IMG/VR virus record: IMGVR_UViG_3300004807_000082
Coordinates: 1-29,744 of that record
Direction: 5' to 3' (one strand)
Source of the DNA: a virus
Length of the DNA stretch: 29,744 nt
Under the pieces are notes generated by a model. The model searched no databases, was not told the DNA's origin, and was given only the letters and a program-made list of their open reading frames with translations. A program made the position numbers and the translations under genes. Numbering within the stretch: position 1 is the stretch's first letter; each line of letters opens with the position of its first letter. This document shows, piece after piece, positions 121 through 23,233 of the stretch.

Positions 121-319
121 AGCGTGGTGGGATGAGTTTGAACGTGAACTTGCTACTATGGTTAAACCAAATGATCCAAATCCACCGCCAAAACCAAGTA
201 TGGAACCACCTAGACTACCTTCTTGGAAACGTGGCAACACATATTACACATTGGCAAATGACCGCCAGTTTCCTGTAGAACCCGAACACCCTAACGCCGT
301 AGGCTGGAATTATGACTGA
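89..319 (+). CDS. Small proline-rich hypothetical protein
   Basis: This 76-aa protein is not recognised. It has an acidic, helical-looking N-terminus (residues 5-25), a proline-rich middle (residues 27-45, including NPPPKP and PPRLPSW) and an aromatic C-terminus ending GWNYD. There is no signal peptide or membrane segment. Two ATGs (89 and 95) could start it and neither has a clear Shine-Dalgarno sequence. It ends in an 8-nt overlap with the glycosyltransferase-like gene, so the two are probably translationally coupled. Lying at the head of a radical SAM cluster, it could be an accessory or substrate protein, but that is only a guess from position. Confidence 0.6.
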   Translation: MNMDISEQEIKAWWDEFERELATMVKPNDPNPPPKPSMEPPRLPSWKRGNTYYTLANDRQFPVEPEHPNAVGWNYD

Positions 320-5031: not shown

Positions 5032-6310
5032 TTATAACGGTAAAGAACCAATCAAGATTGAAGTTGACCAATTAAGTAATAAGCACAAAGAGCTTATTTT
5101 TGAAAATAAAACATTTTGCATGTATCCGTGGATTCATCTACATGCCTTTCCAACTGGTGAAGCATATCCTTGTTGTAATACAGAGATGAGTGAAACTGTT
5201 GGTAATACACGTTATGATACTCTTGAAGAAATATGGCATAGCGCACCTATGCGTGATATTCGTAGTAAAATGCTTGCTGGTGAACATGTAAAAGGTTGCA
5301 ACCGTTGTTATGAACAAGAACAAAACGGTTTCTTTAGTATGCGTATGAGTGCCAATAAACATTTTGGGCATCATATTACTTTAACTGACAATCCTACACC
5401 ACCAATGAAAATGATTTATTGGGATATCAGATTTTCTAACTTATGTAACTTAAAATGTCGTAGTTGTGGTCATATCTTTAGTAGTAACTGGTATGATGAT
5501 CAGGTTAAGTTATTAGAATTAGAACAAGCTACTGCTGAAAGTTGGAAAACAAGAAATACAAGAATAAATTTTGCTGGAAAAACCGAAGATGATATTTGGG
5601 AACAGCTAGAACCACAGATTGATAATCTTGAACAAGTATATTTTGCTGGTGGTGAACCACTTATTATGGAAGAACATTATCGTCTTCTCAATGAACTGAT
5701 TAAACGTGGTCGTAGTGATGTACGATTAATTTATAATACTAATTTTAGTCAGCTTACTTACAAGAAAACAAATGTGTTAGAATTGTGGCGTGAGTTTAAT
5801 AGTGTCAGTGTTGGAGCAAGTCTTGATGCTATGGGTGCTCATGCTGAATATATTCGCAAAGGAACCAAGTGGTCGCAAGTTGAACAAAATCGTGAGCAAA
5901 TGTTAAAGATTTGTCCTAATGTAGATTTTTACATAAGTCCTACCCTAAGCATTATGAACGCTCTGCACTTGCCTAAATTTCATCGTGAATGGGTGAATCG
6001 TGGCTTTTTAAAACCACAGGATTTAAATATTAATATACTACAAGACCCACCACATTATCGTATTGACGCATTGCCATTCCAGTATAAAGTAGATATACAA
6101 GAATTATATCTAGAGCATATTAAATGGTTAAAACCTCAAGATAAATTAACTCGTGCAACAATTGGTTTTGAAAGTGCAATTAACTTTATGATGGCAGATG
6201 ATAAATCAGATTTGTTGCCAAAATTTATTCAAAAAACCGCGCAACTAGATAAAATAAGAAATGAAAATATATTAGATGCAATTCCAGAGTTAGGGTATTT
6301 GTATGAATAA
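5021..6310 (+). CDS. Radical SAM enzyme with N-terminal twitch domain (copy 3)
   Basis: Counting from GTG 5021 the protein is 429 aa. The N-terminal twitch/SPASM-like module reads CMYPWIHLHAFPTGEAYPCC (C33, C51, C52) followed by GCNRC (C93, C96). The radical SAM core has CNLKCRSC (C142, C146, C149) and AGGEPL (209-214). The frame stays open upstream to a TTG at 4997, but GTG 5021 gives an 11-nt overlap with the previous gene and an N-terminus like those of the next two copies. It ends in a Glu/Leu motif (PELGYLYE) like the other copies. With the genes at 6303 and 7495 it forms a second subgroup having CxxPW at the N-terminus. Substrate unknown. Confidence 0.88.
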   Translation: MAYNYNGKEPIKIEVDQLSNKHKELIFENKTFCMYPWIHLHAFPTGEAYPCCNTEMSETVGNTRYDTLEEIWHSAPMRDIRSKMLAGEHVKGCNRCYEQEQNGFFSMRMSANKHFGHHITLTDNPTPPMKMIYWDIRFSNLCNLKCRSCGHIFSSNWYDDQVKLLELEQATAESWKTRNTRINFAGKTEDDIWEQLEPQIDNLEQVYFAGGEPLIMEEHYRLLNELIKRGRSDVRLIYNTNFSQLTYKKTNVLELWREFNSVSVGASLDAMGAHAEYIRKGTKWSQVEQNREQMLKICPNVDFYISPTLSIMNALHLPKFHREWVNRGFLKPQDLNINILQDPPHYRIDALPFQYKVDIQELYLEHIKWLKPQDKLTRATIGFESAINFMMADDKSDLLPKFIQKTAQLDKIRNENILDAIPELGYLYE

Positions 6311-7502
6311 TATTTGTATATTGCCTTGGATTAGTATAGAAACAACACCACTTGGACAAATGCGAGTTTGTTGTTTAGCAAATGAAAATATTAAAGATAC
6401 GAATGGCAAAGATTTGCTCATTGAAAACACAACACTATCATCTGCTTTTGTAAGTGAATATATGAATGATCTTCGTAAGTCTTTTATAAATGGTGAAAAA
6501 CCATCTGTGTGCAATCGTTGTTGGAGCGAAGAAGAAAGTGGACGAACTAGTAAGCGACAAAATAGTTACAATCGTCTTGGTAATCTTGTAAAGCATATTG
6601 ATTTTAGTAATCCAAATAGTGGTGATTTAATATTTCTTGATTTAAAATTAGGAAACATTTGTAATCTTAAATGCAGAATTTGTGGTAGTTTTAGTAGTTC
6701 AAAGTGGGCGCAAGAAGAAATAGAAATTAATAAAGAATATCTTACTGAATATCATAGACCAGCAAAAGAGTTCTTAAGACAAGGACAATGGCCTCGACAA
6801 GTTTCTGCTTTTTGGAATGATTTAGATGTTTTGCTGCCACACATCCGCTATTTGGAATTTACAGGTGGTGAACCATTTTTAATCACCGAACATTTTGACT
6901 TTTTGCGTCAAGCTATAAATCTTGGTGTTGCAAAAAATATTGAAATTCATTATAACACTAATGGAACACAGTTTCCTGAAGATGCAATAGATATATGGAA
7001 ACAATTTAAACTTGTAGAAATCGCACTTAGCATTGATGATATGGGTGCAAGATTTGAATATCAACGTTATGGTGCTAAGTGGGATATTGTTGAAAAAAAT
7101 TTAAAAAACTTTAGAGACTTGCGAGATAAAAATAAGAATATTGTGCTACAATTATGTTTAACTGTAAACGCATTAAATTTTTATTATATAGATGAAATAT
7201 TAAATTGGGTTCCGCATCAAATGTTTAATTACCATTATCTTAATGTAGTTCATGATCCACCACATTTTTGTATTAAGAACCTTAATGATGATGCAAAAGA
7301 AATGATAACAAGAAAAATTTCTCAAGCAAATATTCCATCTATATTTGTTGATGAAATTAAAAATTTATTGCAATTTATGAATAGTGGAACTGGCACAGAT
7401 TGTTCATATCTGATACAAGTATTACGTGATAGTGATAAATTTCGCAAACAACATCTTGCAGATCATCATCCAGAGTTGGCGGCAGCGATTGGTTATGAAT
7501 GA
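6303..7502 (+). CDS. Radical SAM enzyme with N-terminal twitch domain (copy 4)
   Basis: This 399-aa protein begins almost directly with the twitch/SPASM-like module: C5 in ICILPWIS, C23-C24, then C70/C73 in VCNRCW. The radical SAM core has CNLKCRIC (C120, C124, C127) and TGGEPF (187-192). It resembles copies 3 and 5 most closely, sharing the CxxPW start, the stretch NLKCRxCG plus a Ser-rich SSxW, and a C-terminal R..H....PEL motif. The ATG overlaps the upstream stop by 8 nt (ATGAATAA), and its own end repeats the same arrangement with the next gene. That suggests tandem duplication of the whole unit. The specific reaction cannot be told from sequence. Confidence 0.9.
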   Translation: MNNICILPWISIETTPLGQMRVCCLANENIKDTNGKDLLIENTTLSSAFVSEYMNDLRKSFINGEKPSVCNRCWSEEESGRTSKRQNSYNRLGNLVKHIDFSNPNSGDLIFLDLKLGNICNLKCRICGSFSSSKWAQEEIEINKEYLTEYHRPAKEFLRQGQWPRQVSAFWNDLDVLLPHIRYLEFTGGEPFLITEHFDFLRQAINLGVAKNIEIHYNTNGTQFPEDAIDIWKQFKLVEIALSIDDMGARFEYQRYGAKWDIVEKNLKNFRDLRDKNKNIVLQLCLTVNALNFYYIDEILNWVPHQMFNYHYLNVVHDPPHFCIKNLNDDAKEMITRKISQANIPSIFVDEIKNLLQFMNSGTGTDCSYLIQVLRDSDKFRKQHLADHHPELAAAIGYE

Positions 7503-8799
7503 TTTTTGTGTAGCACCGTGGACACATACATATATCTCACCTCAAGGTGAACGCCGTTTATGCTGTGCATCACGTGAACCTGCACAGAACTTTAAACAAT
7601 ATATTGATACCGCTGGTGGTAATGGACAATTTAATCCGCTTACATTAAAGGAATGGTGGAATGGTGAACATATTAGGGAAATTAGAAAACAATGGTTGTC
7701 TGGTGAAGTTCCTTCTGCATGTGAAGTCTGTGATAAGAAGTTACTTAATACCTCTGTTTATCGCGATTACTTTGGTCACTTGTTTGGTCATATTAGATCA
7801 GATATACAAGCTAATACTGATGCTGATGGTTATACAACTTTAGAACCAATCTCATGGGACTATCGTTATAGTAATGTATGCAACTTCAAATGTCGCATGT
7901 GTGGCGATATGTTAAGCAGCGCGTGGGAAGTTGAAGTTCGCAAAAATTCTATGGTTGATTTGTCTAATCCAAAGAATTATTGGATGCAACCAAAGAACCG
8001 CCATGCTATCCGTGATTTTACTCGTGATGTTGTAATACCAGAATTTAAACAAGCCATTGAAAACAAAAGTGTGCGCGAAATTTACTGGGTAGGTGGCGAA
8101 CCACTACTTTATGATGAGCACTGGACATTCATGCGCCGTATAATTGAATTGGGGTATGCAGATCAAGTTCGTGTGCGATATAATACTAATTTAAGTTATT
8201 GCAAAGATTCGCAAGGAACACTTTGGGATTTATTGCAACACTTTCCGCATTGGGAAATATGTGCAAGTTTAGATGGAACAGGAGCGATTGGTGAATATAT
8301 TAGAACTGGCCTTGACTATGATATGTTTTTACAAAATTTTAGACACGGTGTTGAACAATCAAAACATCCTCGTCAGATGCGTATCGACTTTACTCTTACT
8401 ACCCCTGGGTTATTTGATTTGGAAAATATCATCGCTCTTGCTGATGAACTGAATGTTGAATTATTAAGTAAGGTAGTATTTGCTTTCTCGCCTGACATAC
8501 TAATAAGCCCCTTGGCACTACCTAGAATGGTGCTAGAACCACTTTTAGATGGTATACAGAAGCGTATTAAACCGCTCATTACTCGTCGCACACAAAGTTT
8601 ATGGGATGTTCTAGAACATCTTAAAACTCGTCCTACATTTGCAGAACAGTTTTCTGATACCTATAAACGTGAGGCAATTCGTGGTAAAACGCATCTTTTA
8701 AAATTGGAATCTATTCGCAAAGATGCTAAAATAAAAATGGAAGATATTCTATCAAGTGAACCAACTGTTCTATCATGGTGGAATTCTATTGGTGAATAA
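7495..8799 (+). CDS. Radical SAM enzyme with N-terminal twitch domain (copy 5)
   Basis: This 434-aa protein, counted from ATG 7495, starts with C5 in FCVAPWTH, C23-C24, then C76/C79 (ACEVCDKK), followed by the radical SAM core CNFKCRMC (C129, C133, C136) and VGGEPL (199-204). An open frame runs back to 7426, but the ATG at 7495 overlaps the previous stop by 8 nt and reproduces the N-terminus of copy 4, so it is preferred. The C-terminus has the R....MEDIL....PTVLSWW motif, a diverged form of the family tail. It is the last of five N-twitch enzymes in the block. Substrate unknown. Confidence 0.9.
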   Translation: MNDFCVAPWTHTYISPQGERRLCCASREPAQNFKQYIDTAGGNGQFNPLTLKEWWNGEHIREIRKQWLSGEVPSACEVCDKKLLNTSVYRDYFGHLFGHIRSDIQANTDADGYTTLEPISWDYRYSNVCNFKCRMCGDMLSSAWEVEVRKNSMVDLSNPKNYWMQPKNRHAIRDFTRDVVIPEFKQAIENKSVREIYWVGGEPLLYDEHWTFMRRIIELGYADQVRVRYNTNLSYCKDSQGTLWDLLQHFPHWEICASLDGTGAIGEYIRTGLDYDMFLQNFRHGVEQSKHPRQMRIDFTLTTPGLFDLENIIALADELNVELLSKVVFAFSPDILISPLALPRMVLEPLLDGIQKRIKPLITRRTQSLWDVLEHLKTRPTFAEQFSDTYKREAIRGKTHLLKLESIRKDAKIKMEDILSSEPTVLSWWNSIGE

Positions 8800-9013: not shown

Positions 9014-10119
9014 TGACTGTTATAATGACCCTTCGCAATCCTTTAAATAAAGAAGATTTATTGCCTGTAATTATTGAACCTAATGAAACACAGTTAGCAG
9101 TAGATTGGATGGCTGCATTAAAAGTAGAACTACAGCGCAATAGTATTTTAGAAAAGAATTATTGTTGGCACGGTTGGCCAAATGGCGCAAGAAACCTAGA
9201 GTATCTTACTAGTGAATTAAGTCGTCATGCGTTAAACATTTGGAAGTATAATGAACTCGGCATATGGCAAAGTGCTGGTTTAGCTAATATAAAAATTGAA
9301 ACTGTTTATACACCAGAAACAGTTATGTTGCCATTAACTGAAGTAAAAAACAGTGGTGGTCCAAATCATGATGTTATGAATATCGTGCATAATTACTTTG
9401 AACATTTACAAGGCACGGTTGAAAATTTAAGTCCATATTACAAACTAGCTCCACCAAATATCAAATATAGTATAAGACAACTAAACAATCTTTGCCATGA
9501 AATTGAAACACTATGTTTAAGTTTGCGAAAGCAGAAACATAATCCAGATTGGGTTCGTCCAAGCCAAATAACAACATTTCTGAATACCGTTCGTTATAAT
9601 TTAACAGATGAACATCGCAATGGGTTTATAACTAATGGTTATGACCGTAAATTTGCTCATGTTTATATGCATTGGACACAAATTGGTAAAACGCTAATGG
9701 AGGTATTCCGTGATGAAGGTGCTCCCATTTTAGATCAAGCTACATGCGATGCCATCACACATTTGCAATATTACAGTGGAGAGTTTGATATTGAGTGGGG
9801 TCGTGATGTTTGTTATGGAAAACATGATTGGCATACACGCGAGATTGATGCTTTTAATAAATGGTTGCGGCGTGAAGGTTACAATCCAACTGATACATCA
9901 CTAAGTCTTGGTTATCTGGAACTTGGTTCTATAAATTTAGAAAAAAGTTTTGGAACAACTGATATTACAAAGATTTGGGATATAATGGGTAACTATCTTG
10001 ACATATATAGTCTTGAAGTTGATGGACAAACCGCTGTTTACGATTACATTTGGAGTGATGAAGATCACGAACAACGCCAAATTAATTATTTGATGCCTGG
10101 TTACAATAGTCATGTTTGA
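9013..10119 (+). CDS. Hypothetical protein of the radical SAM cluster
   Basis: This 368-aa protein is not recognised. It is rich in aromatic residues and histidine, with a striking HDVMNIVHNYFEHLQG segment (around residues 118-134) and IKYSIRQLNNLCHEIETL just after it; both could form helices carrying metal ligands. Later segments include HVYMHWTQIGKTLMEVF and YYSGEFDIEWGRDVCYGKHDWH. There is no signal peptide or membrane segment. It is coupled to its neighbours: TAATG at the start, 8-nt overlap (ATGTTTGA) at the end. The gene sits between the radical SAM enzymes and the repeat protein, so it probably serves the same pathway, but no biochemical role can be assigned. Confidence 0.75.
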   Translation: MTVIMTLRNPLNKEDLLPVIIEPNETQLAVDWMAALKVELQRNSILEKNYCWHGWPNGARNLEYLTSELSRHALNIWKYNELGIWQSAGLANIKIETVYTPETVMLPLTEVKNSGGPNHDVMNIVHNYFEHLQGTVENLSPYYKLAPPNIKYSIRQLNNLCHEIETLCLSLRKQKHNPDWVRPSQITTFLNTVRYNLTDEHRNGFITNGYDRKFAHVYMHWTQIGKTLMEVFRDEGAPILDQATCDAITHLQYYSGEFDIEWGRDVCYGKHDWHTREIDAFNKWLRREGYNPTDTSLSLGYLELGSINLEKSFGTTDITKIWDIMGNYLDIYSLEVDGQTAVYDYIWSDEDHEQRQINYLMPGYNSHV

Positions 10120-13018
10120 TACCTATTGGTATGATTATGCAGATTGCAATGATATTAAAGAATTAATTGCCAAAGCAATTGCTTCCAGTCGCACCGAATA
10201 TATTTGGCTGCGTCATCGTGCAGTAGATTATACTAATTTTAATTTACGATTTATTCCACCGCGACATCAATCAAACATGTTGCATGCTTGGGCAAGTCAT
10301 GATAATCCAAAATGTTACACAACGTGGTTAATACCAATTGAAAATTATGGTGAGATATTTTATCACGATGGTATATTACCTATTGTACAACAACCAACTT
10401 GGACAACAAGCGAACAAGTATTATATGATGGTTTTAATTTTAATTGGTACCCTGATGTATGGGATTGGGATAAACAACATCACTTTGCAATGGATGGCAC
10501 TACTCAATTATCTTACACAAGTGTAGGAAATGGCAATGAAGTAAAATATCATATTAGCAACTTGCGTTTTAAATCTATAGGTGTTTGGTATGATACAGAT
10601 ATTATAGATGATTCACCTTATGAATGGAATTGGATTGCAGATAATCGTATTGACTATACCGATTTTAATTGGAACTGGTTGCCTGATAGATGGGATGCAG
10701 ATAAAATACATGAATTTTGTATGTGGGGCGCGGAACAATTATCTTATACACGATTAATGCGTCGAAATTGTAAAAAAGAAAAAGTCTATCACTCCTCATA
10801 TCTTACTTTTAAGAATATTCCTAAATTGCATCAATTAGAATCTATAGATAGCGAGTGGATTTGGATTATTGACGAGCGTATAGATTATAGCAACTTTAAT
10901 TTTAATTGGTTGCCGCCAGCGTGGGATATTAACAAAACACATGCGTTTGTCATGAGTGGCACAACACAACTTGCCTATACTTTTTTACACAATACAAAGC
11001 ATGCAAGCAAACAAATAAAGTATCATATAACAGATTTAAAATTTGATGCTACAAAACAAAATGATGAATGGGTTTGGGAAACAGATGAACGCATAGATTA
11101 TAGTCATTTTGATTTTGATTGGTTACCAGATGCATGGGATGCAAATAAAACTCATGCTTTTGCTATGCATGGAACCGAACAGTTGTGCTATACTTTTTTA
11201 CGCAATACAAAAGTTGAAAGTGTTGAAACAAAATATCATAAAACAGATTTGCGATTCAAAAGTGATATTGAAAATGATGAATGGGTTTGGATTAAAGACG
11301 ATAGAATAGATTATAGTGATTTTGATTTTGATTGGTTACCTGATGCGTGGGATGCCGATAAAACACACGTATTTTGTATGGCTGGCACAAAACATCTAGG
11401 ATATACTAAACTTATAAACACCAATATTAAAAATCCCAAAATAATTTATCACAGCAGTAATTTAAAATTTTTACCACAAGTGCGTCCAGTCATTTATTGG
11501 CAAGATTACACTAATAGTTTTAATTTAGAAACGTTTAAATCATTAGCAATGGGAAGTGAATGGACATGGATTGCTGATCGTCGCATTGATTATAGCGATT
11601 GGGACTTTGATTGGTTACCTGATGGATGGGATACGAATTATATTCATTGTTTTACAATGAAAGACAAAGAACAATTAAGTTATACTATTCTTATTCACAG
11701 AGATGCAATTACAAATTTCGTAGATTACAAATATCACACAGCACAGCTACAGTTCAATGATACACATGCTGACATGTGTTTAATTAACACGAACTCATTT
11801 GATAATACTATTACGCAAGACTTTCAAGTTCGTTTAATTACAACAATGGAAGAAGCAATCAAAGCTGCTGTTGCAAAAAGTAAACGTGAATGGTTATGGC
11901 TTTATAGTGATTGTTGTGAATATGATGGTTTTGATTGGTCATGGTTGCCAGACCTTGATCAACGTGAACAAGTGCATTGTTGGCCAAGTGGAACTTGTGA
12001 AAAAGGCGATACATTTTTAATACACGTTCCAAGTTTTAATCCTAATAAAATTAAGTATAATTTTGAACATAGTGCAGTTATCAGAAAAAAATGGACACTT
12101 GTCAATTATAAAGAGGACAATTTAGCCCAAGCCTTACAATACAAAAGCAGTGCAATATACACTATTTTTTGCAAGGAGACTATAGGTAATATTCCTGATG
12201 TTTGTTTATGGGATAAGCGACCTATAATATCTTTAAACAATTCCAATAGTTCAAGTTTAGTGCCTCGTGATTGTATAGTAAAAAAAGAAATATACGAGTA
12301 TCCGCATCTTATGAAAATATCAGAAGATATAAAAACACAATATGATATTGTTTTTATAAGTTATGACGAAGTTCAAGCAGATGAAAATTATGTTAAATTA
12401 TTAGAATCATATCCACATGCCAAACGAGTGCATGGTGTAGAAGGAATGGAAAATGCATTGGCTGCTGCAGCTAAATGTAGCAATACTGACTATTTTTATG
12501 CTGTTTTTGCTAAAACAAAATTATATGAAAGTTGGGATTTTACAACCGAACCAGATTACTGGCGTGATCCTCGCAACTATATCTTTTATGCTATTAATAC
12601 ATCAAATGATTTGGTATACGGTGAAATGGGAATTGTTTTGTATAACAAAAAATTCTTACTTACTGCGCCATCTTACGATGAATTAGGAATAGATTTTACT
12701 ATGAGTTTTCCAGTTCAGGTAATTCCACAAATTAGTGCCTATGGAGAATTTGCCACTGACCCTTATCGTGCATGGAGAACTGCTTTTCGTGAAACATGTA
12801 AGTTAGCATACTTTAATAGCCAAAAATCATGCATTGAAACTCAATATCGTATTAACCAATGGAAAACTTATGCTCATGGTGAACATGCAGAAGACGTTTT
12901 AAGAGGTGCCAATGATGGATATCAATATTTTATTGAAAATAGTGACGATTTGTCAGCACTTAAGAAAACATTTCGTTGGGATTGGCTCAAGAATTATTAT
13001 AATTCCAAATACAACTAA
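10112..13018 (+). CDS. 968-aa repeat protein with C-terminal glycosyltransferase-like domain
   Basis: The N-terminal two thirds consists of eight related units beginning near residues 29, 101, 171, 248, 319, 390, 483 and 593; the best conserved are 71-77 residues apart. The unit core reads E-W-x-W, D-x-R-I-D-Y-S, F-x-W-L-P-D-x-W-D, H-x-F-x-M, Q-L-x-Y-T, Y-H and L-x-F. Units 1 and 8 are diverged, and both are preceded by an AI..A..(S)K/S helix. From about residue 744 a domain like the protein at 312-1250 follows (YDIVFISYDE, KRVHGVEG, AWRTAFRETCKL), but its DxD position reads FAKTK, so catalysis is probably lost. It is the last gene of the plus block. It could be a scaffold, an acceptor protein or a surface component. 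Confidence 0.75.
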   Translation: MFDTYWYDYADCNDIKELIAKAIASSRTEYIWLRHRAVDYTNFNLRFIPPRHQSNMLHAWASHDNPKCYTTWLIPIENYGEIFYHDGILPIVQQPTWTTSEQVLYDGFNFNWYPDVWDWDKQHHFAMDGTTQLSYTSVGNGNEVKYHISNLRFKSIGVWYDTDIIDDSPYEWNWIADNRIDYTDFNWNWLPDRWDADKIHEFCMWGAEQLSYTRLMRRNCKKEKVYHSSYLTFKNIPKLHQLESIDSEWIWIIDERIDYSNFNFNWLPPAWDINKTHAFVMSGTTQLAYTFLHNTKHASKQIKYHITDLKFDATKQNDEWVWETDERIDYSHFDFDWLPDAWDANKTHAFAMHGTEQLCYTFLRNTKVESVETKYHKTDLRFKSDIENDEWVWIKDDRIDYSDFDFDWLPDAWDADKTHVFCMAGTKHLGYTKLINTNIKNPKIIYHSSNLKFLPQVRPVIYWQDYTNSFNLETFKSLAMGSEWTWIADRRIDYSDWDFDWLPDGWDTNYIHCFTMKDKEQLSYTILIHRDAITNFVDYKYHTAQLQFNDTHADMCLINTNSFDNTITQDFQVRLITTMEEAIKAAVAKSKREWLWLYSDCCEYDGFDWSWLPDLDQREQVHCWPSGTCEKGDTFLIHVPSFNPNKIKYNFEHSAVIRKKWTLVNYKEDNLAQALQYKSSAIYTIFCKETIGNIPDVCLWDKRPIISLNNSNSSSLVPRDCIVKKEIYEYPHLMKISEDIKTQYDIVFISYDEVQADENYVKLLESYPHAKRVHGVEGMENALAAAAKCSNTDYFYAVFAKTKLYESWDFTTEPDYWRDPRNYIFYAINTSNDLVYGEMGIVLYNKKFLLTAPSYDELGIDFTMSFPVQVIPQISAYGEFATDPYRAWRTAFRETCKLAYFNSQKSCIETQYRINQWKTYAHGEHAEDVLRGANDGYQYFIENSDDLSALKKTFRWDWLKNYYNSKYN
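10196..12064 (+). repeat. Eight in-frame coding repeats (W/D-rich units)
   Basis: The units begin near 10196, 10412, 10622, 10853, 11066, 11279, 11558 and 11888. The spacing from 10853 to 11066 and to 11279 is exactly 213 nt (71 codons), and these middle copies are similar even at DNA level (for example GATGAATGGGTTTGG at 11063 and 11276). Outer copies are similar only as protein. This points to recent duplication in the centre of an older array. The period and the kept reading frame show it is a coding array, not a CRISPR. Confidence 0.85.
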
Positions 13019-14066
13019 CAATATATTCAAGTTCACTTTGTTTAAGTTGCGCAAAAACTGGCAAACTCAAACAAGTGGCTGCTAATTCTTCACTACTTGG
13101 CAATTGTAATAAACTTTTATAAACTGGTTGCTGATGTAATGCTAAAGGAAATTGTAGTCCAGTTTCAATTCCATGTTCTGCTAGATACTGACGTAAAACA
13201 TCTCTGCTAGGTGAAACAATTACAAATTGATTCCATACATGATCGCTATACGGATTGGTAAGAGGTAATATAATTCCGCTGCCTGCAAGATTTTCCAAAT
13301 AATATCTTGCATTAATATCACGTTGTTTATTCCACTTTTTAAGAAATGGAATTTTTGCAGTAACTATTGCTGCTTGCATAGCATCAAGCCGTTCATTGTA
13401 TCCAATGCCAGTATGAATATACTTTTCTGTTCGAGCATGGTCTCTGTAGTATCTAATCTTTTCGCATACCTCAACGGAGCCAGTAACAGCGCCAGCGTCT
13501 CCCATTGCACTTAAATTTTTACCAGGATAAAAACTATAACAAGTTGCATATACAAAATCATTGACATCAACTAGAGTGTTATAACATACTGCGCTTTGTG
13601 CTGCATCACGAATAAGCGGAATACCAACGCTTACGCTGCGCAGTTTTTCAATATCAATAGTTTGCCCATATAAATCAACAAATATTATAGCTTTTGTTTT
13701 TTCTGTAATTGCTGTGGCAACAGCATCAATATTAATTGTATAGTATTGATCTATATCAACAAAGATTGGAGTAGCACCAAGTTGGCTTACGACTTCTGCG
13801 GTGCTCATAAAACTCATTGCTGGCACAATTACTTCATCGCCGCTGCCAATCCCCAAACTCAACAAAGATAAAAATAGTGCACTTGTTCCACTGCTGGTTC
13901 CAGCACAATCTTTATTATCGGTATAATTTGCCCATGCAACTTCAAATTGTTTAACTGCATCTCCGCCAATAAAATTACTATTGGCAATACAATTTCTTAT
14001 AGCATTATCTATTTCATATTGACATTCTTTATATTCTGCATACAAGTTTGCATATGGTATTTTCAT
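12987..14066 (-). CDS. DegT/DnrJ/EryC1-family sugar aminotransferase (distal copy)
   Basis: This 359-aa PLP-dependent enzyme of the family that puts amino groups on keto-sugars attached to nucleotides has GTSSGTSAL (phosphate-binding turn, about 56-64), DAAQS (D154, Q157), and SFYPGKNLSAMGDAG with the PLP lysine K183. Length is normal for the family. Its ATG at 14066 overlaps the stop of the DesII-like gene by 4 nt (ATGA) and has AAGG about 8 nt upstream; this is preferred over the longer open frame to 14096. Placed after a DesII-like enzyme it fits the DesV role, amination at C3 of the 3-keto sugar. Its 3' end overlaps the converging plus-strand gene by 32 nt. The sugar position is inferred from context. 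Confidence 0.9.
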   Translation of the reverse strand: MKIPYANLYAEYKECQYEIDNAIRNCIANSNFIGGDAVKQFEVAWANYTDNKDCAGTSSGTSALFLSLLSLGIGSGDEVIVPAMSFMSTAEVVSQLGATPIFVDIDQYYTINIDAVATAITEKTKAIIFVDLYGQTIDIEKLRSVSVGIPLIRDAAQSAVCYNTLVDVNDFVYATCYSFYPGKNLSAMGDAGAVTGSVEVCEKIRYYRDHARTEKYIHTGIGYNERLDAMQAAIVTAKIPFLKKWNKQRDINARYYLENLAGSGIILPLTNPYSDHVWNQFVIVSPSRDVLRQYLAEHGIETGLQFPLALHQQPVYKSLLQLPSSEELAATCLSLPVFAQLKQSELEYIVSCIWNYNNS

Positions 14067-15436
14067 CCTCGTATCCTTACTGGTCCAATTGACCAATCAA
14101 TGCCATATTCTGCGTCATCTCGTGCTTGATTGATTAATAAACTTATTACATGGTCAAAAGCATCAAGAAATCCAACATCCTGTGGCAATGCACGAATTTT
14201 CTTTTTATTGTTTACGAAAACTTTTGTAACTTCTTCAACTGATGAACCTGCGATATTTCCAATAATGTAACGATCACTGCCTGGTCTATCTAAAAATCCA
14301 CTTTCGTGATAAACATAAACATTGCCTTTTACATCTACGGCAACTGAAACTTGTGGAAAACTTTCTGGAATAATTTCATCCCAATTAATCATCCGCAAAC
14401 TACCTACATTTTTATTATATTTTAACGGCTCAAGCGCATAACCTAAATCAAAATGGGTAGACCAGTTTTTTTTAAAATCATCAATAAGTTTGAATATATC
14501 CATTAACTCGCCGCGCTCGGCATCACTTATTGTACGAATATTTTGACTAAAATCTTCACGCAGTGTAACAAAATCTATTGGTGTTGCGCATTGCTCGTTA
14601 ATATAATTTATAATTTTTAAGAGTTCTTTAACATCATTTGCATGTCCTGGCAAAATAATCCAGTTTATACCAACTTTTGTTTTGGCAGCACGTTTTTTAA
14701 ATTCAATAATATTATTAATAATATGTGCAAAACTCTGGCGATTCTTTGTAACAGCATAAGCAGTGTCTTCACTAACGCCATATAAACTAAATCTAACGGC
14801 TTCTAAATCTAACATACCAGGATGTTTATCAAGATAACGAGCAGTCATCATATTACCATTAGTATACAACTGCATATTATATCCACGTTGTGCACCATGC
14901 GTTATTATATCACCAAGGTATGGGTTTGTTAGTGGTTCAAGACCGCCGCTTATGCGAAATCTATCTTGCCAATTAACATCTGTTTGTGGGTCTTGGTCAA
15001 TAATTTGATAAAAATAATCACGACCAATTTCTGCATATTTGTTTTCATATTTTGCAACAGGATTGCGTCCACAAAAACCGCAATAAAACATACAACTCAA
15101 ACCAGTGTATAAACCAATACGATTTGGATACATCCAACGTCTTTCAATAGCAGATTGCAAAGTGTTGGTTTTTAACAATGGCATAATGGTGTTAGTCCAA
15201 TATTTTGTTCCTACCCCATTATGCAAAATTCTATGCTGAGCATCATCGCTATTGCGAATTTCCTCATTAATTTTTTTATGATATTCAAGATTAAAATTAT
15301 ATAACTTAGCAATGCTTCTTTGACTAATAAAAGGATCATCAGCAAGCATTTGTATAACTTTTTCTGCATCATCAGATAATGCATGATTTTCTATAATATC
15401 AGTTGTGGTATCTTTGTGTTTATAACCAAGTCTCAT
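14063..15436 (-). CDS. DesII-like radical SAM nucleotide-aminosugar deaminase
   Basis: This 457-aa protein has the radical SAM cluster CMFYCGFC (C115, C119, C122) and SGGLEPLTNP (163-172). That variant of GGEP, the preceding YWTNTIMPL and IGLYTGLSC, and the later PIDFVTLRED and PQVSVAVDVKGNVYVY stretches line up along the whole length with DesII/EryCV as I recall it. DesII (dTDP-4-amino-4,6-dideoxyglucose ammonia-lyase) removes the C4 amino group by radical chemistry to give a 3-keto-4,6-dideoxy sugar. Flanking DegT aminotransferases on both sides, joined by 1-nt (TAATG) and 4-nt (ATGA) overlaps, would supply its substrate and use its product. Exact sugar specificity is not known. A phage copy is unusual. 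Confidence 0.88.
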   Translation of the reverse strand: MRLGYKHKDTTTDIIENHALSDDAEKVIQMLADDPFISQRSIAKLYNFNLEYHKKINEEIRNSDDAQHRILHNGVGTKYWTNTIMPLLKTNTLQSAIERRWMYPNRIGLYTGLSCMFYCGFCGRNPVAKYENKYAEIGRDYFYQIIDQDPQTDVNWQDRFRISGGLEPLTNPYLGDIITHGAQRGYNMQLYTNGNMMTARYLDKHPGMLDLEAVRFSLYGVSEDTAYAVTKNRQSFAHIINNIIEFKKRAAKTKVGINWIILPGHANDVKELLKIINYINEQCATPIDFVTLREDFSQNIRTISDAERGELMDIFKLIDDFKKNWSTHFDLGYALEPLKYNKNVGSLRMINWDEIIPESFPQVSVAVDVKGNVYVYHESGFLDRPGSDRYIIGNIAGSSVEEVTKVFVNNKKKIRALPQDVGFLDAFDHVISLLINQARDDAEYGIDWSIGPVRIRG

Positions 15437-16548
15437 TATAATGAATTTATCACAGTTTGTATAACTGTGTCAACTTGTTCATCAGTTAAGTGCCAGTGAC
15501 TTGGTAAACTTATAATACGTTCGTTATTAGTAATATATTCTGCATGTGGACACAATTGATAACCATAAGATTTTACAAATGGTTCACGATTAAGTGGTCT
15601 TGAATAATGGCTACTATATTCTATGTCGGCAGCCTTTAATGCTGCCTTGACACTATCTTGACGTAATGGTGCTATGCTAAATGAATAATAATTCCATGTT
15701 CCCCATTGTTGTCGCAATGGTAAATCTAATGCTTTAGCATAATTTATAAATTCATTATAATAACGTTTGCAAATTGAAAGTTTTCTTGGTAAATGATCTT
15801 CATAGTAAGGAACTTTTGCTACAAGCGTAGACGCTTGTGTTGATAACATACGAAAGTTAAGACCAGGCAATTCTATTTGACCATAAGGACCACCTTCAAT
15901 TTTACCCATTGTGCATGTGCCATTTAATATAGATGGATGAATTGTTTTACTTACGATAGCACCACCGCCACTGCCGCCAAGATTCTTGAGTGGATTAAAA
16001 CTTAAACAAATAGCATCAGCAATAGTTTGGTCATATTCGTTTGAACATAATCCAAAACTATGAGCAGCATCAATAATCCATTTTATATTATGGTCATCGC
16101 ACCATTTGCGAACACGGGTTAGATCAACGCCTTGACCATATAAATCAACAGTGATAAGAGTGCTTATTTCTTCACCATACTTGGCATACATTTCATCAAG
16201 TAGTTCAATATCCAACAACCAACTACTATCAATATCAACAAAGGTTGGGATACAACCTACTGCCATGACTGCTTGTGCAGTAGCTGCATATGTTAGTGCT
16301 GGCAACAACACTCTACTACCGCACTTTGTATATAGTGCCATAAGTGCAGCTATAAGTGAACTGGTTCCGCTATTAGTAAGTTCAACATGAGCATTATTAT
16401 ACTTTACACGAATATATCGTGCAACAGCATCGTGTGCATTACCACTATAAAATTGCCCACTTTTAAAAGCAGATTGCATACCACCAAGTATGTAACCTTT
16501 ACAATCTTCGTATTGTTCTTTAAGATTGTAATAATTTATTGATGCCAT
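15436..16548 (-). CDS. DegT/DnrJ/EryC1-family sugar aminotransferase (proximal copy)
   Basis: This 370-aa enzyme has GTSS (61-64), DAAHSFG (D160, H163) and SFNPLKNLGGSGGGA with the PLP lysine K188. It differs from the distal copy in having His in place of Gln after the PLP-binding Asp, so the two are not recent duplicates and probably act on different carbons or substrates. Lying directly before the DesII-like enzyme, it is a candidate for the DesI role, amination at C4 of a 4-keto-6-deoxy sugar nucleotide. The ATG at 16548 overlaps the end of the epimerase gene by 29 nt; the stop shares one base with the DesII-like ATG. The carbon specificity is an inference from gene order. Confidence 0.9.
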   Translation of the reverse strand: MASINYYNLKEQYEDCKGYILGGMQSAFKSGQFYSGNAHDAVARYIRVKYNNAHVELTNSGTSSLIAALMALYTKCGSRVLLPALTYAATAQAVMAVGCIPTFVDIDSSWLLDIELLDEMYAKYGEEISTLITVDLYGQGVDLTRVRKWCDDHNIKWIIDAAHSFGLCSNEYDQTIADAICLSFNPLKNLGGSGGGAIVSKTIHPSILNGTCTMGKIEGGPYGQIELPGLNFRMLSTQASTLVAKVPYYEDHLPRKLSICKRYYNEFINYAKALDLPLRQQWGTWNYYSFSIAPLRQDSVKAALKAADIEYSSHYSRPLNREPFVKSYGYQLCPHAEYITNNERIISLPSHWHLTDEQVDTVIQTVINSL

Positions 16549-17398
16549 CTTCTAAACTTGTCTTTGGCGTGTAGCCAAGATATTGCACAGCACGGCGAGT
16601 ATCAAGCGCACCACGTTTTGGCATATCAAATGGTATGCCATCACCATATATAATTTTGCTTTGTGTTTTTGTCCAATCTCTTATTACATTGATAGCATCT
16701 TGTAGTGTTCTTGCGCTTCCATAACTTACATTAGCTATAAAATTATGTGTGTCAAATAGTGCAGCATTTGTGATAGCCTGTGCTACATCTTCTACATATG
16801 TAAAATCTAATGTAGCATGTGGATCATCTACGTGGATTGTTTCTTGATTAAGAGCAGCTTTTATCCATTTAGAGATGACACGATTGCCATCATCACGGTT
16901 ACCATATACAGCAGTAGGACGAATGATTACCCATTTCTGTGCAATAATTCTAACAAGTTCTTCGCACATTTTTTTAGCCCTACCATAATCATTGATAGGT
17001 TTAAGTGGTGTATCCTCTGCGATAGAGTCTTTCCAGTCACCATATACCATACTGCTGCTTATATAAACCATTTTTGCATTAGGGTATGTTGTTAATAGAT
17101 GAATAGTGCTTTGAACTGTATTGCGCCAAGCAGACAAGTTGTCTTTGGAAAAAGTTGCTTGATTTGGTTCACCAGCGAGATGGATAATAACATCGACATC
17201 TTGAATAACAGTTTTGCTGCAATCAGCATTGATCCAATCATCATATGCAAATTCCATATAACGACCACGTTCCAAATATAAATCAGTAGTAATATATCGT
17301 AAATCATCAATAATTGTAACACGATGATTAGCATCTATTAGACGTTTTACAACATGATGACCAATAAATCCAAATCCACCTGTAACTAATACATGCAT
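16520..17398 (-). CDS. NAD-dependent nucleotide-sugar epimerase/reductase (extended SDR)
   Basis: This 292-aa protein opens with the Rossmann motif TGGFGFIG (6-13), has DDL after beta-2 (31-33), HLAG (73-76), SSSMVYG (114-120) and the catalytic Y138-G-R-A-K142. This is the extended short-chain dehydrogenase fold used by UDP-glucose 4-epimerase and related enzymes. The TDE triad of 4,6-dehydratases (RmlB type) is absent, so epimerase or 4-ketoreductase activity is more likely. ATG 17398 follows the thyA stop by one base; an open frame runs on to 17491 but overlaps thyA too far. It probably acts in the same sugar pathway as the aminotransferases downstream. At about 290 residues it is somewhat shorter than typical epimerases. 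Confidence 0.85.
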   Translation of the reverse strand: MHVLVTGGFGFIGHHVVKRLIDANHRVTIIDDLRYITTDLYLERGRYMEFAYDDWINADCSKTVIQDVDVIIHLAGEPNQATFSKDNLSAWRNTVQSTIHLLTTYPNAKMVYISSSMVYGDWKDSIAEDTPLKPINDYGRAKKMCEELVRIIAQKWVIIRPTAVYGNRDDGNRVISKWIKAALNQETIHVDDPHATLDFTYVEDVAQAITNAALFDTHNFIANVSYGSARTLQDAINVIRDWTKTQSKIIYGDGIPFDMPKRGALDTRRAVQYLGYTPKTSLEDGINKLLQS

Positions 17399-17399
17399 A

Positions 17400-18242
17400 T
17401 TACACCGCCATTTCTGCTTTGATTGTTGAATGAGATTGATAATTTTGTAAAATAATATTATCCATTTTTGCTGTCCAAATATCTGCAACATTACTTAAAT
17501 CTAATGTAGGATATGGATATGGTTCACGACCTAATAATTCTATAACTTGTGGGACATGATTGTTGTAGATATGAACATCGCCAAATGTAAGAATAAGTTC
17601 GCCAACTTCTGCACCAATTGTTTTGGCAATAAGATGTGTGAGTAGAGCATAACTTGCAATATTAAAAGGCACACCCAAAAACAAATCTGCGCTACGTTGA
17701 TACATTTGGCAACTTAAAATATTTCTACGAATATAAAACTGCGCAAACATGTGGCAAGGTGGCAGAGCCATCTGATTTAATTCACCTGGATTCCATGCAG
17801 TAATAATATGGCGGCGACCGTTGGGATCATTCTGCAAACCATCAATAAGATTTTTTAATTGATCTACTTCGACACCATCAGCACTACGCCAGTGACGCCA
17901 CTGTACACCATATACACGACCCAGATCGCCATTATAAGAAGAATTTGGAAGCCAATAATCTGCGTTAGCATTTGCAGTCCAGATTGTTTTCTTGCTTTCA
18001 TCTCGTGTTCCATATAGAATTTCTGCCAATCTTCTTTCATCACCGCTGCCTTCAATAAACCATAATAGTTCACTAACTACACTTTTCCAAGCAAGTTTTT
18101 TAGTCGTGATTGCTGGAAAACCATCTTGTAAGTTAAACCGTAACTGTTCACCAAATAAACTAATGGTTCCAACACCAGTTCTGTCTATAACTTGCGGTCC
18201 AGTTAGTATAATTTTTTTACATAATTCATTGTAATTTTGCAC
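17400..18242 (-). CDS. thyA: Thymidylate synthase (ThyA type)
   Basis: It converts dUMP to dTMP using methylenetetrahydrofolate. Counted from GTG 18242 the protein has 280 aa, with RTGVGT (21-26), the catalytic cysteine C163 in ALPPCH, QRSADLFLGVPFNIASYA and GDVHIYNNH, all classic ThyA motifs. The frame is open to an ATG at 18287, but that would overlap the DHFR gene by 62 nt and add residues that ThyA proteins lack; GTG 18242 puts the first conserved helix (QNYNELCKKIILTG) at the usual place. It is coupled to DHFR upstream, as in the T4 frd-td pair, and boosts dTTP for phage DNA synthesis. The start choice is moderately sure; the function is very sure. Confidence 0.95.
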   Translation of the reverse strand: MQNYNELCKKIILTGPQVIDRTGVGTISLFGEQLRFNLQDGFPAITTKKLAWKSVVSELLWFIEGSGDERRLAEILYGTRDESKKTIWTANANADYWLPNSSYNGDLGRVYGVQWRHWRSADGVEVDQLKNLIDGLQNDPNGRRHIITAWNPGELNQMALPPCHMFAQFYIRRNILSCQMYQRSADLFLGVPFNIASYALLTHLIAKTIGAEVGELILTFGDVHIYNNHVPQVIELLGREPYPYPTLDLSNVADIWTAKMDNIILQNYQSHSTIKAEMAV

Positions 18243-18729
18243 GACGAGTCCATACTGAAAATATTTTATTCTTTCCATATGATTCATATTGCATATTGAA
18301 AGATTTTAATAACTCTACCACATCTATGCTAACATCGCAATTAAATTCGTCATAAAATGTTGTAAGATATAATTGCTTAAAAAGATGACTTGTACTTTCA
18401 ATTAGTTTTGGACCACCAATTATCCATATATCTTTTTTAGGATGTTGTAATTGCAATACTTCTAAACTTTGTTCAATTGCTGCACCTGCTATTACATCAT
18501 GCGCTTTTGGGAAGTTTTCTACGGATTGATTAGTTACTACTGCACAATGACGATCTGGTAGTGGCTTTGGCATTTTTGGGTCTAGCCAAGTATTACTACC
18601 CATTACAACTACATGACCACGTGTATTGCTACTGAACCACTCCATATCTTGTTTATCATGTGGCCATGGTAGAGTTCCATCTTTGCCCATTCCACCATTT
18701 AAGTCTACTGCAAAGATGGCTTTTATCAT
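18226..18729 (-). CDS. folA: Dihydrofolate reductase
   Basis: This 167-aa protein has the DHFR signatures: AVDLNGGMGKDGTLPW at the N-terminus, DMEWFSSNTRG (substrate-binding Asp and helix), VVVMGSNTW (NADPH site) and WIIGGP. It regenerates tetrahydrofolate consumed by thymidylate synthase, whose gene follows with an overlap. Its ATG shares a base with the stop of the upstream gene (TAATG), so it is cotranscribed with the conserved phage genes upstream. Length is normal for bacterial and phage DHFR. T4-like phages commonly carry this frd-td pair. Confidence 0.95.
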   Translation of the reverse strand: MIKAIFAVDLNGGMGKDGTLPWPHDKQDMEWFSSNTRGHVVVMGSNTWLDPKMPKPLPDRHCAVVTNQSVENFPKAHDVIAGAAIEQSLEVLQLQHPKKDIWIIGGPKLIESTSHLFKQLYLTTFYDEFNCDVSIDVVELLKSFNMQYESYGKNKIFSVWTRRAKLQ

Positions 18730-21369: not shown

Positions 21370-21783
21370 TCAAGAAAAAGCCATTATTTGTTCGAAAATA
21401 TTGGTTTTATTTAAATTTAAGTCAATATATCCATTAAAACCAACATAATTTGTTGCAATTTTACTTTGGTTTTCACAATTTATTACTATATTTTGCTGTA
21501 AATATACTTCATTTATTGGAAACATATCTAATTTAATACTGCAAATTTTAACAAATTTATCAGCAATAATTTTATTGTCTTCAATAATTGTGTCATTTTT
21601 CATATCTTTTCCACTAAAATCTATTTTAATTTTTTTGGGAAGATTTACAAATAAACTTTGTTCTACAAACTTTTCACCCGTGGGATTTATCACAATATCA
21701 TCGCCAATAAATTTTACAGTCATTGTTTTATTTTTGACATAGCCAAATTCAAACAAAAATTTTATTTCTACATTATCAAACAT
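21370..21783 (-). CDS. Hypothetical protein coupled to the B12-type radical SAM gene
   Basis: This 137-aa protein of alternating hydrophobic and charged residues looks mostly beta: EIKFLFEFGYV, MTVKFIGDDIVINP, KKIKIDFSGKD. It may be a beta-sandwich, perhaps a carbohydrate-binding-like module, but this is a guess from the pattern. It has no signal peptide. It starts inside the end of the radical SAM gene (8-nt overlap), so the pair is cotranslated and probably works together. Both are very AT-rich and lack the promoter seen before the other units. It ends just upstream of the promoter of the VWA gene. Function unknown. Confidence 0.65.
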   Translation of the reverse strand: MFDNVEIKFLFEFGYVKNKTMTVKFIGDDIVINPTGEKFVEQSLFVNLPKKIKIDFSGKDMKNDTIIEDNKIIADKFVKICSIKLDMFPINEVYLQQNIVINCENQSKIATNYVGFNGYIDLNLNKTNIFEQIMAFS

Positions 21784-23233
21784 TGTTTTTAATTAAACTT
21801 TCTAGCACAAAATGATTATCAAGGTTATCAACAACATTGTAACCTAGTTTTTTACTGTAATTCATAAGGTCAATCGTCCATTGCGCCCTTATTTTTGGTG
21901 TACTATTAATAGACGGATTTATCCATTCATTTGGCAAGGGACCAATTTTTGTTATTCCTAATTTTTCTTTATTATTATCTAAAAAAGTATTTGGGAAAAT
22001 ACCTAATGTCCCACCCCATTGAATTACCAGTGTGTCTTTATACTCAATATGAGTTGCTAACCAATTTTTTATATAGTTAATATGTGTTTGTGTTTCAGTA
22101 ATGTATCCAACGATATTAAGTAAAGTAATTTTTATGTTATATTTTTTAGCTTGTTTTAAATAAAAATCTATAGATTCATTAGTAAATTTTTTACCCATGG
22201 CGTATCTAATATCTTCATTTAGATTTTCAACTCCAACACTTAAAACATTTGCACCAGACTTAGCTATTAACTCCCATTCATGTTCACTGCTTTGAGATAT
22301 ATTTCTAAAAATAAAATATCCAGACCAACTAAAAGAATTATTTGGATTTTTTGTATTATAATTTGCCAATAACTTTAAAAATTTTAAAAATTCTTTTTGA
22401 TTGCCATTAGTCAAACTGTCTTGAAATTTAAAATTTCTTATATTATATTTTTTGTTTTGAATTAACATTTCATTGAATATTTCTTCTGCTTCTCTCCAGT
22501 GAAAGTTTTTCCAATTAGAAATGTAATCACAAAAAGTGCACTTTCTTACACATCCTCTGCTGCCTACTAAAGGCAATATTCTTTTTCTATAATTTGCAAA
22601 ATTATAATCGTCATAATCAGGATACGGTAAACTTCTAACTTCTTCCCTACTCAGTTCTTGCCATGATGGTGTATTAATTCCATTATAATCATTGTTACCA
22701 TTTAAAAGTTCAATAAGTGAACGTTCACCATCGCCGCGAATATGCCAATCAGCTAATTTTTCATTTAGCATAAAATTTACAAATTCACTTGGACCAGTAA
22801 AGGTATCTAAACAGCCAGCACCGCCAATTAATATTTTGATTTTGGGATTGAGTTTTTTAATATAGTATGCTATCCATTTTCCACTTTGCTGACAAACATA
22901 AGAAAATAGACTTAACCCCACATATTTTGGTTTATAAGAAATAATTTTAGTAGCAATATTTTTAAACAAATTATGTAAAAAATTTGCTGCCTCATTATCA
23001 GCAACACCATCAAAGAAAAATTTTATCAATTCATCTTTTAAAGGATGAATTGTTATTATATTAAATATTTCTATATTAAGATCGATTGCTAAACAGCTAT
23101 AACCACATTTTTCAATTATTGGTTTTAGTGCTGCTGGTGCCATCAACGGCAAATTAGTATCAATCCAGGGCACAGTGGTTATAATAAAATCTATCTTTTT
23201 ATTTTCGGAATTATCTAAACATTCAATTTTCAT
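21776..23233 (-). CDS. Radical SAM enzyme with N-terminal cobalamin-binding-like domain
   Basis: This 485-aa protein has an N-terminal Rossmann-like region (about 13-175, with VGLSLFSYV and KILIGGAG) typical of B12-binding radical SAM enzymes, although the DxHxxG cobalamin motif is not evident. The core has GSRGCVRKCTFC (C228, C232, C235), then FQDSLTNG and VGVENLNEDIRYAMGKK. Such enzymes often methylate or rearrange unactivated carbons. It overlaps a small beta-rich partner gene by 8 nt. Very AT-rich, it lies between the VWA and MoxR genes, which usually function as a pair, so it looks like an insertion. The substrate is unknown and cobalamin use is uncertain. Confidence 0.85.
   Translation of the reverse strand: MKIECLDNSENKKIDFIITTVPWIDTNLPLMAPAALKPIIEKCGYSCLAIDLNIEIFNIITIHPLKDELIKFFFDGVADNEAANFLHNLFKNIATKIISYKPKYVGLSLFSYVCQQSGKWIAYYIKKLNPKIKILIGGAGCLDTFTGPSEFVNFMLNEKLADWHIRGDGERSLIELLNGNNDYNGINTPSWQELSREEVRSLPYPDYDDYNFANYRKRILPLVGSRGCVRKCTFCDYISNWKNFHWREAEEIFNEMLIQNKKYNIRNFKFQDSLTNGNQKEFLKFLKLLANYNTKNPNNSFSWSGYFIFRNISQSSEHEWELIAKSGANVLSVGVENLNEDIRYAMGKKFTNESIDFYLKQAKKYNIKITLLNIVGYITETQTHINYIKNWLATHIEYKDTLVIQWGGTLGIFPNTFLDNNKEKLGITKIGPLPNEWINPSINSTPKIRAQWTIDLMNYSKKLGYNVVDNLDNHFVLESLIKNNV

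Follow-up and report, generated by a model that had tools for sequence, protein, structure and literature searches.

A phage gene cassette combining a DesII-family radical SAM enzyme with a likely sugar C3-aminotransferase suggests nucleotide-aminosugar synthesis

The virus record IMGVR_UViG_3300004807_000082, whose entire 29,744 bases are referred to as the window, carries on its minus strand (positions 12987-17398) four intact and overlapping genes that may together form a nucleotide-aminosugar cassette. In the order of transcription they encode a short-chain dehydrogenase/reductase (SDR) of the NAD-dependent epimerase/reductase type (16520-17398, 292 aa), a divergent member of the DegT/DnrJ/EryC1 family named DegT1 (15436-16548, 370 aa), a DesII-family radical S-adenosylmethionine (SAM) enzyme (14063-15436, 457 aa), and DegT2, an aminotransferase of the QdtB/DesV/WbpE type that likely acts at C3 (12987-14066, 359 aa). 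The SDR is counted from the methionine opening the Rossmann motif, its open frame starting at 17491, and the open frame of DegT2 starts with TTG at 14096. The original prediction had named this gene order and had told the two DegT proteins apart by the motifs DAAHS (DegT1) and DAAQS (DegT2), and both statements proved correct. The lysine binding pyridoxal phosphate (PLP) and the PLP aspartate are kept in both proteins. Pfam assigns DegT1 (176.9 bits) and DegT2 (286.2 bits) to DegT_DnrJ_EryC1 and the SDR to Epimerase (129.3 bits). Since successive genes overlap by 29, 1, and 4 bases, transcription as one unit is suggested.

Another IMG/VR record, 111,324 bases long, is 100% identical over the cassette and the other window open reading frames compared. 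Between close cassettes of sister phages, the ratio of nonsynonymous to synonymous substitution rates (dN/dS) was 0.015-0.095 in the 7 of 14 gene pairs with usable dS, the others being saturated (5) or identical or nearly so (2). The values were 0.080, 0.063, and 0.024 for DesII, 0.079 and 0.095 for DegT2, 0.015 for the SDR and 0.072 for DegTx, an additional DegT gene upstream in cassettes of the L055 type (loci are numbered L, records G). This purifying selection was measured in the sister phages; both pairs with window genes were saturated. The cassette genes are almost certainly functional in the sister phages, and because these cassettes are under purifying selection and the second record is identical, gene decay or an assembly error is unlikely.

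The radical SAM protein matches the NCBIfam model rSAM_desII (TIGR04426) with 327.9 bits (E 1e-97), the next family following at 40.2 bits, and its score for Pfam Radical_SAM lies just below the cut-off (29.1 vs. 29.5 bits). In the PDB it finds DesII of Streptomyces venezuelae (8hzv, E 1e-66; 8hzy, E 2e-66), and four other matches, none of them DesII, all have E 0.7 or worse. For DesII the structure paper names the residues C141/C145/C148, G187-E190, R238/S240/Y242, D323/Y324, E408, and D456, and reports that the D456A variant is inactive while E408A/Q are active (PMC11434129). When these residues were placed via the PDB alignment, leaving the GXIXGXXE motif aside, 13 of the 14 compared were found in the window protein, namely the CX3CX2C cysteines C115/C119/C122, GGLE at 164-167, R215, S217, Y219, D295, E378, and D425, the exception being Y324, which is replaced by phenylalanine. 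Thereby D425 corresponds to the essential D456, which is invariant across 28 aligned rows, and E378 to E408, which is absent only from the row L004a. DesII rows of phages, Pelagibacteraceae and Streptomyces form one group (95/96; 19 DesII-family rows vs. 7 other radical SAM proteins), and in the tree rooted on Streptomyces 12 phage-module rows and two rows of locus L004 make up a clade (99/98). A single clade of the window sub-clade and Streptomyces DesII was rejected by the approximately unbiased (AU) test (p-AU 7e-6; three Streptomyces rows only). Because the protein misses the equivalog cut-off of TIGR04426 (450 bits) and the phage proteins form a separate clade, its sequence identifies it as a DesII-family homologue and not as a DesII equivalog. 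The claim that it belongs to the DesII clade therefore holds for the family, but not for the clade of Streptomyces DesII or at the equivalog level. With DesII, the dTDP-4-amino-4,6-dideoxy-D-glucose ammonia-lyase of the Streptomyces desosamine pathway, the window protein shares the radical SAM family, CX3CX2C, GGLE, and the ribose motif, whereas it differs in its low identity (31-34% to three Streptomyces plasmid DesII), its clade, its phage setting and the lack of a DesI-type partner. Among 50,697 phage records no match to the DesII-like protein was found. In a sample of 398 Pseudomonadota genomes 15 gave matches, full-length only in the Pelagibacteraceae centre genome, the other 14 having at most 57 bits over part of the model. 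A scan of genome contigs yielded 11 loci in Pelagibacteraceae and, in Streptococcus, a single partial match; sugar-gene clusters of Pelagibacteraceae (L007-L017) thus carry a DesII relative.

The PDB ranking of DegT2 is led by QdtB (247.6 bits), 7b0d (246.9 bits), DesV (220.1 bits) and WbpE (181-184 bits), with WlaRG also near the top. Lower in the ranking are a KdnA-like enzyme (7kz3, 147.1 bits), NtdA (139.1 bits), UDP-Ara4N aminotransferases (107-128 bits), perosamine synthase (109-111 bits), and DesI (81.4 bits); here we take 2oga to be DesV, 2po3 to be DesI and 7kz3 to be KdnA, and the name WlaRG is likewise our assumption. With Streptomyces DesI as control query, DesI, perosamine synthase and ArnB were top-ranked. 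In an unrooted DegT tree, a 99/99 branch has DesI, ArnB, WecE, and one plasmid DegT on one side and all phage rows together with the other bacterial rows on the opposite side; the side of DegT2 holds bacterial enzymes from FdtA/QdtA and Gfo/Idh contexts, and the corresponding branch is weaker in a larger tree. Eight plasmid regions were hand-picked among 281 plasmid records matching DegT2, and in these the relative of DegT2 stands beside FdtA/QdtA (3/8), beside Gfo/Idh (4/8) or beside neither (1/8). FdtA/QdtA and Gfo/Idh neighbours supply 3-keto sugars. Since QdtB, DesV, and WbpE rank highest and plasmid relatives have FdtA/QdtA or Gfo/Idh beside them, DegT2 can be assumed to be a likely sugar C3-aminotransferase, in line with the DesV-like role predicted for it. 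It resembles QdtB, DesV, and WbpE in its scores and in the retained PLP lysine and aspartate, but the DegT2 proteins of 30 phage module clusters form a clade of their own (100/99 vs. four bacterial rows), and among the 50,697 phage records DegT2 relatives reach 34-36% identity at best.

DegT1, which had been predicted to be the DesI of the pathway, turned out differently. It is weakly similar to all PDB aminotransferases (best 108.6 bits; DesI 53.2 bits) and reaches 72.6 bits with TIGR04427, the cut-off being 650. It forms a long branch among the phage DegT2-type enzymes (99/96; 98/99 in the larger tree), and joining it to DesI/ArnB/WecE was rejected (p-AU 0.0003), so that by its sequence DegT1 is a very divergent relative of the phage DegT2-type enzymes. 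As a divergent paralogue it may have changed its function, possibly to C4 amination. Placing DegTx on the DesI/ArnB/WecE side was also rejected (p-AU 0.014), while one clade of DegTx and DegT1 passes the AU test (p 0.069). The sister cassettes L002/L003, L062/L063, L065, and L067 have no counterpart of DegT1, and the L003 record contains another very divergent DegT ~20 kb from the cassette.

The best PDB relatives of the SDR are epimerase-type SDRs (89.7 bits), and the protein contains the motifs SSSMVYG and YGRAK. In all three phage SDRs compared, SSSMVYG aligns with STDEVYG of RffG from Escherichia coli, and the S-S-S is invariant across nine SDRs. Because SSSMVYG replaces STDEVYG, and the catalytic Asp-Glu of the TDE motif is thus absent, the SDR was rejected as the missing 4,6-dehydratase; with the NCBIfam model of the 4,6-dehydratase family the window SDR scores 88 bits (cut-off 365.1). 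RmlB (TIGR01181) was above the cut-off in none of six virus records and in none of 18 in a second set, which may be incomplete records. An RmlA-type nucleotidyltransferase (PF00483) was found in none of the six and in one of the 18, again with possible incompleteness, as a weak match (28.9 bits) in a Gfo/Idh-type record. Three of the 18 are DesII-bearing records of 262-345 kb, and G004, the L004 record, is in both sets. The prediction that both enzymes are lacking is hence borne out for the dehydratase in the records searched, but has to be qualified for the nucleotidyltransferase by this one sister record. As a true 4,6-dehydratase is missing from the phage records searched and nucleotidyltransferases are all but missing, the nucleotide-sugar donor probably comes from the host, unless the records are incomplete.

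A scan of viral contigs with an alignment revealed 28 loci with a DesII relative, 16 of which are cassettes like that of the window (L001-L003, L055-L067; several near-duplicates). In 15 of the 16 DegT2 adjoins DesII, whereas the contig of L066 ends at DesII and its record includes part of a second DegT, and the SDR is likewise present in 15, the exception L058 starting at DesII. The locus L004 has two DesII relatives and one DegT but no adjoining SDR, and the remaining 11 are clusters of a different, marine type. For a further scan an alignment of DegT2 from seven DesII-type and two Gfo/Idh-type members was used, which gave 141 confirmed loci, of which the best 80 were kept and searched with profiles (at least 50 bits) for module features within 5 kb of DegT2. 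One of these features, the WLP protein described below, is near DegT2 in 56 of the 80 loci, 38 of them with Gfo/Idh, 15 with DesII and three with neither. Together with the SDR it occurs with Gfo/Idh in 37, with DesII in 14 and with neither in three loci; one DesII locus and one Gfo/Idh locus have WLP without the SDR. The 24 loci without WLP have only the SDR (12), none of the features (6), SDR and Gfo/Idh (4) or only Gfo/Idh (2). DesII and Gfo/Idh were found together in none of the 80 DegT2 loci. After clustering at 80% DegT2 identity, 30 WLP module clusters remain, seven with DesII, 20 with Gfo/Idh, none with both and three with neither, and the hypergeometric probability of this exclusivity is 6e-5 if relatedness is ignored. 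The SDR is present in 29 of the 30 clusters, and a carbamoyltransferase (profile built from one sequence, within 9 kb) lies near 22 of them, e.g., L003:12437-13933, but none was seen near the window cassette. Pfam confirmed Gfo/Idh in both loci checked, L079 and L080, and the largest phage contig with a module measures 345 kb. In the DegT2 tree at least three changes of the module form are needed, and a large clade (100/99) that otherwise has Gfo/Idh or neither encloses the DesII pair L147/L149. Moreover, both enzymes use the same slot, the order being SDR-DegT2-DesII in L062/L063 and SDR-DegT2-Gfo/Idh in L080. By its gene content, the window cassette is one form of a module consisting of an SDR, a C3-type aminotransferase, a GT-A-like protein and often a carbamoyltransferase. 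Gfo/Idh and DegT act as pairs in the WbpB/WbpE and kanosamine-type routes. The sister phages resemble these in that SDR, DegT2, and Gfo/Idh are encoded close together, whereas in the window lineage a DesII-like protein occupies the place of Gfo/Idh.

The WLP protein (10112-13018, plus strand, 968 aa) consists of repeated N-terminal units, at least five by eye and of the kind W..D.RIDYSDFDFDWLP.AWD...H.F, and a C-terminal domain, to which the GT-A-like protein with an IDGDN motif encoded at 312-1250 (plus strand) is homologous. A WLP homologue is found beside 15 of the 16 window-like DesII cassettes, the 16th being L066, which ends at DesII; in L064, L065, and L079 it is flanked by SDR and DegT2 in the same orientation. 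The homologues range from 428 to 1139 aa. The structure predicted for that of L055 (543 residues; pLDDT 82.5, pTM 0.63) matches GT-A glycosyltransferases in Foldseek (E 1e-5, low TM) and superimposes on B4GALNT1 with Z 11.1 (root mean square deviation (rmsd) 2.8, 134 residues), nucleotidyltransferases of the same fold reaching Z 9-10. With a second region at residues 98-227 (Z 10.4, rmsd 3.4, 129 residues), two GT-A-like domains are predicted in this homologue. For the 312-1250 protein the best hit (Z 8.6, rmsd 3.4, 132 residues) is suggestive only. According to these models, both are candidate glycosyltransferases. However, either may be a nucleotidyltransferase, since fold searches fail to separate GT-A glycosyltransferases from nucleotidyltransferases of the same fold. 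Neither the 312-1250 protein nor a WLP protein had a match among the 50,697 phage records.

Taken together, we consider it fairly probable that the genes form a nucleotide-aminosugar cassette in which the DesII-like enzyme supplies a 3-keto sugar aminated by DegT2, either by deamination of a 4-amino sugar or by dehydrogenation at C3; the chemistry, the nucleotide and the acceptor are all inferred. A nucleotide sugar would be drawn from the host and converted to the 3-keto sugar by the DesII-like radical SAM enzyme, DegT2 would transaminate the 3-ketone to a 3-amino sugar, the SDR would epimerise or reduce a neighbouring carbon, probably C4, and the WLP or the 312-1250 GT-A-like protein would attach the sugar to a glycan, either on the virion or on the surface of the host. 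DegT1 of the window may first aminate C4, whereupon the DesII-like enzyme would eliminate that amino group; the product would be a 3-amino-3,4-dideoxy sugar, or a 3,4,6-trideoxy sugar with a 6-deoxy donor. The role of the DesII-like enzyme as 3-keto supplier is mainly supported by the alternation of two unlike enzymes beside one kind of C3-aminotransferase. That the DesII-family enzyme and the NAD-dependent Gfo/Idh protein are interchangeable suppliers of 3-keto sugars for this kind of aminotransferase, and have displaced each other more than once, is a tentative conclusion to which we give slightly less than an even chance. Several points weigh against this picture, besides the missed equivalog cut-off. 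Relatedness limits the statistic of the alternation, with a minimum of three changes and two independent pairs, and since seven DesII-type and two Gfo/Idh-type cassettes went into the scan alignment, the proportions of loci are not unbiased. For the Gfo/Idh protein of L079, the PDB offers neither a close relative (36.5 bits at best) nor a characterised dehydrogenase to which it could be tied, so that its role as a C3 dehydrogenase is an inference as well. In addition, DesII and Gfo/Idh co-occur in 10 of the 11 Pelagibacteraceae loci (L007-L017), where the gene of the Gfo/Idh cluster is short (Pfam-checked for L009, L014, and L017) and the L010 contig starts at DesII, and on Streptomyces plasmids DesI, DesII, and Gfo/Idh occur together in two of the three clusters. 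In these Pelagibacteraceae and Streptomyces clusters, Gfo/Idh may serve to reduce the 3-ketone, as it does in chalcose-type routes. Because of these co-occurrences, the exclusivity holds for the phage module alone. Finally, it is from predicted folds that the transfer to a glycan was deduced, and nucleotidyltransferases sharing this fold have scores almost as high.

Regarding the destination of the sugar, the cassette might alter the surface polysaccharide of the host, and so block later phages, rather than the virion, an option that we regard as conceivable but rather less than probable. It is favoured by the host recognition clusters of pelagimyophages, in which glycosyltransferases and radical SAM cassettes accompany the tail fibre genes and whose authors argue that the O-chain is modified (PMC7029224). 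The window cassette itself is flanked by structural-looking genes (by eye) on one side and by the thymidylate synthase gene thyA on the other. However, a Pfam scan of 20 window proteins revealed neither a flippase nor a ligase or lipid-carrier transferase, and the neighbouring carbamoyltransferase, GT-like and SPASM-type radical SAM genes suit modification of a protein or the virion equally well.

Within the proposed aminosugar cassette, the step of the DesII-like enzyme can be read in two ways, to which we assign equal odds, each by itself being rather unlikely. According to the first, a full Des pathway is present, in which DegT1 acts as DesI on dTDP-4-keto-6-deoxyglucose, the DesII-like enzyme deaminates C4, and DegT2 aminates C3 to give dTDP-3-amino-3,4,6-trideoxyhexose; the 3-amino-3,4,6-trideoxy product of the original prediction is therefore possible. 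According to the second, the DesII-like enzyme is a radical C3 dehydrogenase acting on a 4-hydroxy nucleotide sugar, which would replace Gfo/Idh one for one, keep the 4-hydroxyl group and leave DegT1 as an accessory. DesII is capable of both, as it removes ammonia from TDP-4-amino-4,6-dideoxyglucose, whereas TDP-quinovose is oxidised by it at C3, which yields the 3-keto sugar (PMC11434129). The order of the genes and their families match the Des pathway, and the compared DesII residues, being those of a deaminase, are kept, which speaks against dehydrogenation; no residue favouring the latter was found, nor was any searched for. Further, an extra DegT stands beside DesII in four of seven clusters but beside Gfo/Idh in one of 20 (Fisher p 0.009), which favours C4 amination, and the extra DegT of L055/L057 is under the purifying selection given above for DegTx. 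However, when relatedness is considered, this association comes down to two independent pairs, neither of them informative, and L064 has an extra DegT which L065 lacks, yet their DesII proteins are 88% identical. The records G416, G417, G419, and G421 hold a single DegT each, though they may be fragments, and both DegT1 and the extra DegT of other cassettes were rejected as members of the DesI/ArnB/WecE lineage. The several cassettes that show no second DegT suit the dehydrogenase, and because the sister phages have Gfo/Idh where DesII would stand, next to an aminotransferase of the same kind, a role as C3 dehydrogenase has to be taken seriously as an alternative to deamination. It is very improbable, and the least likely among virion, host surface and DNA, that the amino sugar is attached to phage DNA, for although thyA (17400-18287, minus strand; Pfam, NCBIfam), directly upstream of the cassette and outside the pathway, and a dihydrofolate reductase gene are adjacent, these are ordinary nucleotide genes of such phages, and the Pfam scan of 20 window proteins revealed no DNA-glucosyltransferase family.

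The window phage is probably T4-like and probably a jumbo phage, since a capsid-like protein of the 111,324-base record, chosen by eye and matching proteins annotated as major capsid proteins, shares 68% identity with its counterparts in Pseudomonas phages such as PA5oct and Paride (284-288 kb); the record itself is probably a fragment of a larger genome. The window contains six further radical SAM-type genes in a row (1216-8799, plus strand; Pfam scores between 25.5 and 44.2, some not above the cut-off) and one with a weak B12-binding match (21776-23233, minus strand), which amounts to eight radical SAM genes within 30 kb including the DesII-like gene. In a phage contig of 262 kb, a gene of the tryptophan halogenase family is located close to the cassette (L055:15419-16666, 306 bits). 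L004 combines a sulfotransferase-family gene with two different DesII relatives and a DegT in one phage, and in L068 (7059-9323) a DesII relative lies inside an open frame of 754 aa among sulfotransferase-like genes (by eye). Two DesII-bearing marine clusters encode a DegT in which histidine replaces the PLP lysine (L005:4105-5286, L006:3675-4850), a replacement also seen in ColD-type 3-dehydratases. The L003 phage also carries, at L052 (G003:40151-43808), a QueE-like gene and two QueD-like genes (by eye) together with a divergent DegT (Pfam), perhaps a 7-deazaguanine set.

The pelagimyophage host recognition clusters resemble the window locus as a variable region of T4-like phages with glycosyltransferases and radical SAM cassettes, but the passages considered name no module of DesII, DegT or Gfo/Idh for them, and the words "aminotransferase" and "epimerase" do not occur in the main text (PMC7029224). 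Within the open-licence literature, no paper was recognisable by its title or the start of its abstract as describing a phage DesII or the module. The removal of ammonia from a sugar by radical chemistry has DesII as its model enzyme, which was studied in a macrolide pathway. The phage branch of DesII, together with the natural series of DesII and oxidoreductase forms, makes the partition between deaminase and dehydrogenase testable with natural variants. The module points to a set of amino sugars made by phages, often with a carbamoyltransferase nearby, and if the interchange is true, it would mean that DesII chemistry, known from antibiotic pathways, serves the diversification of phage glycans.

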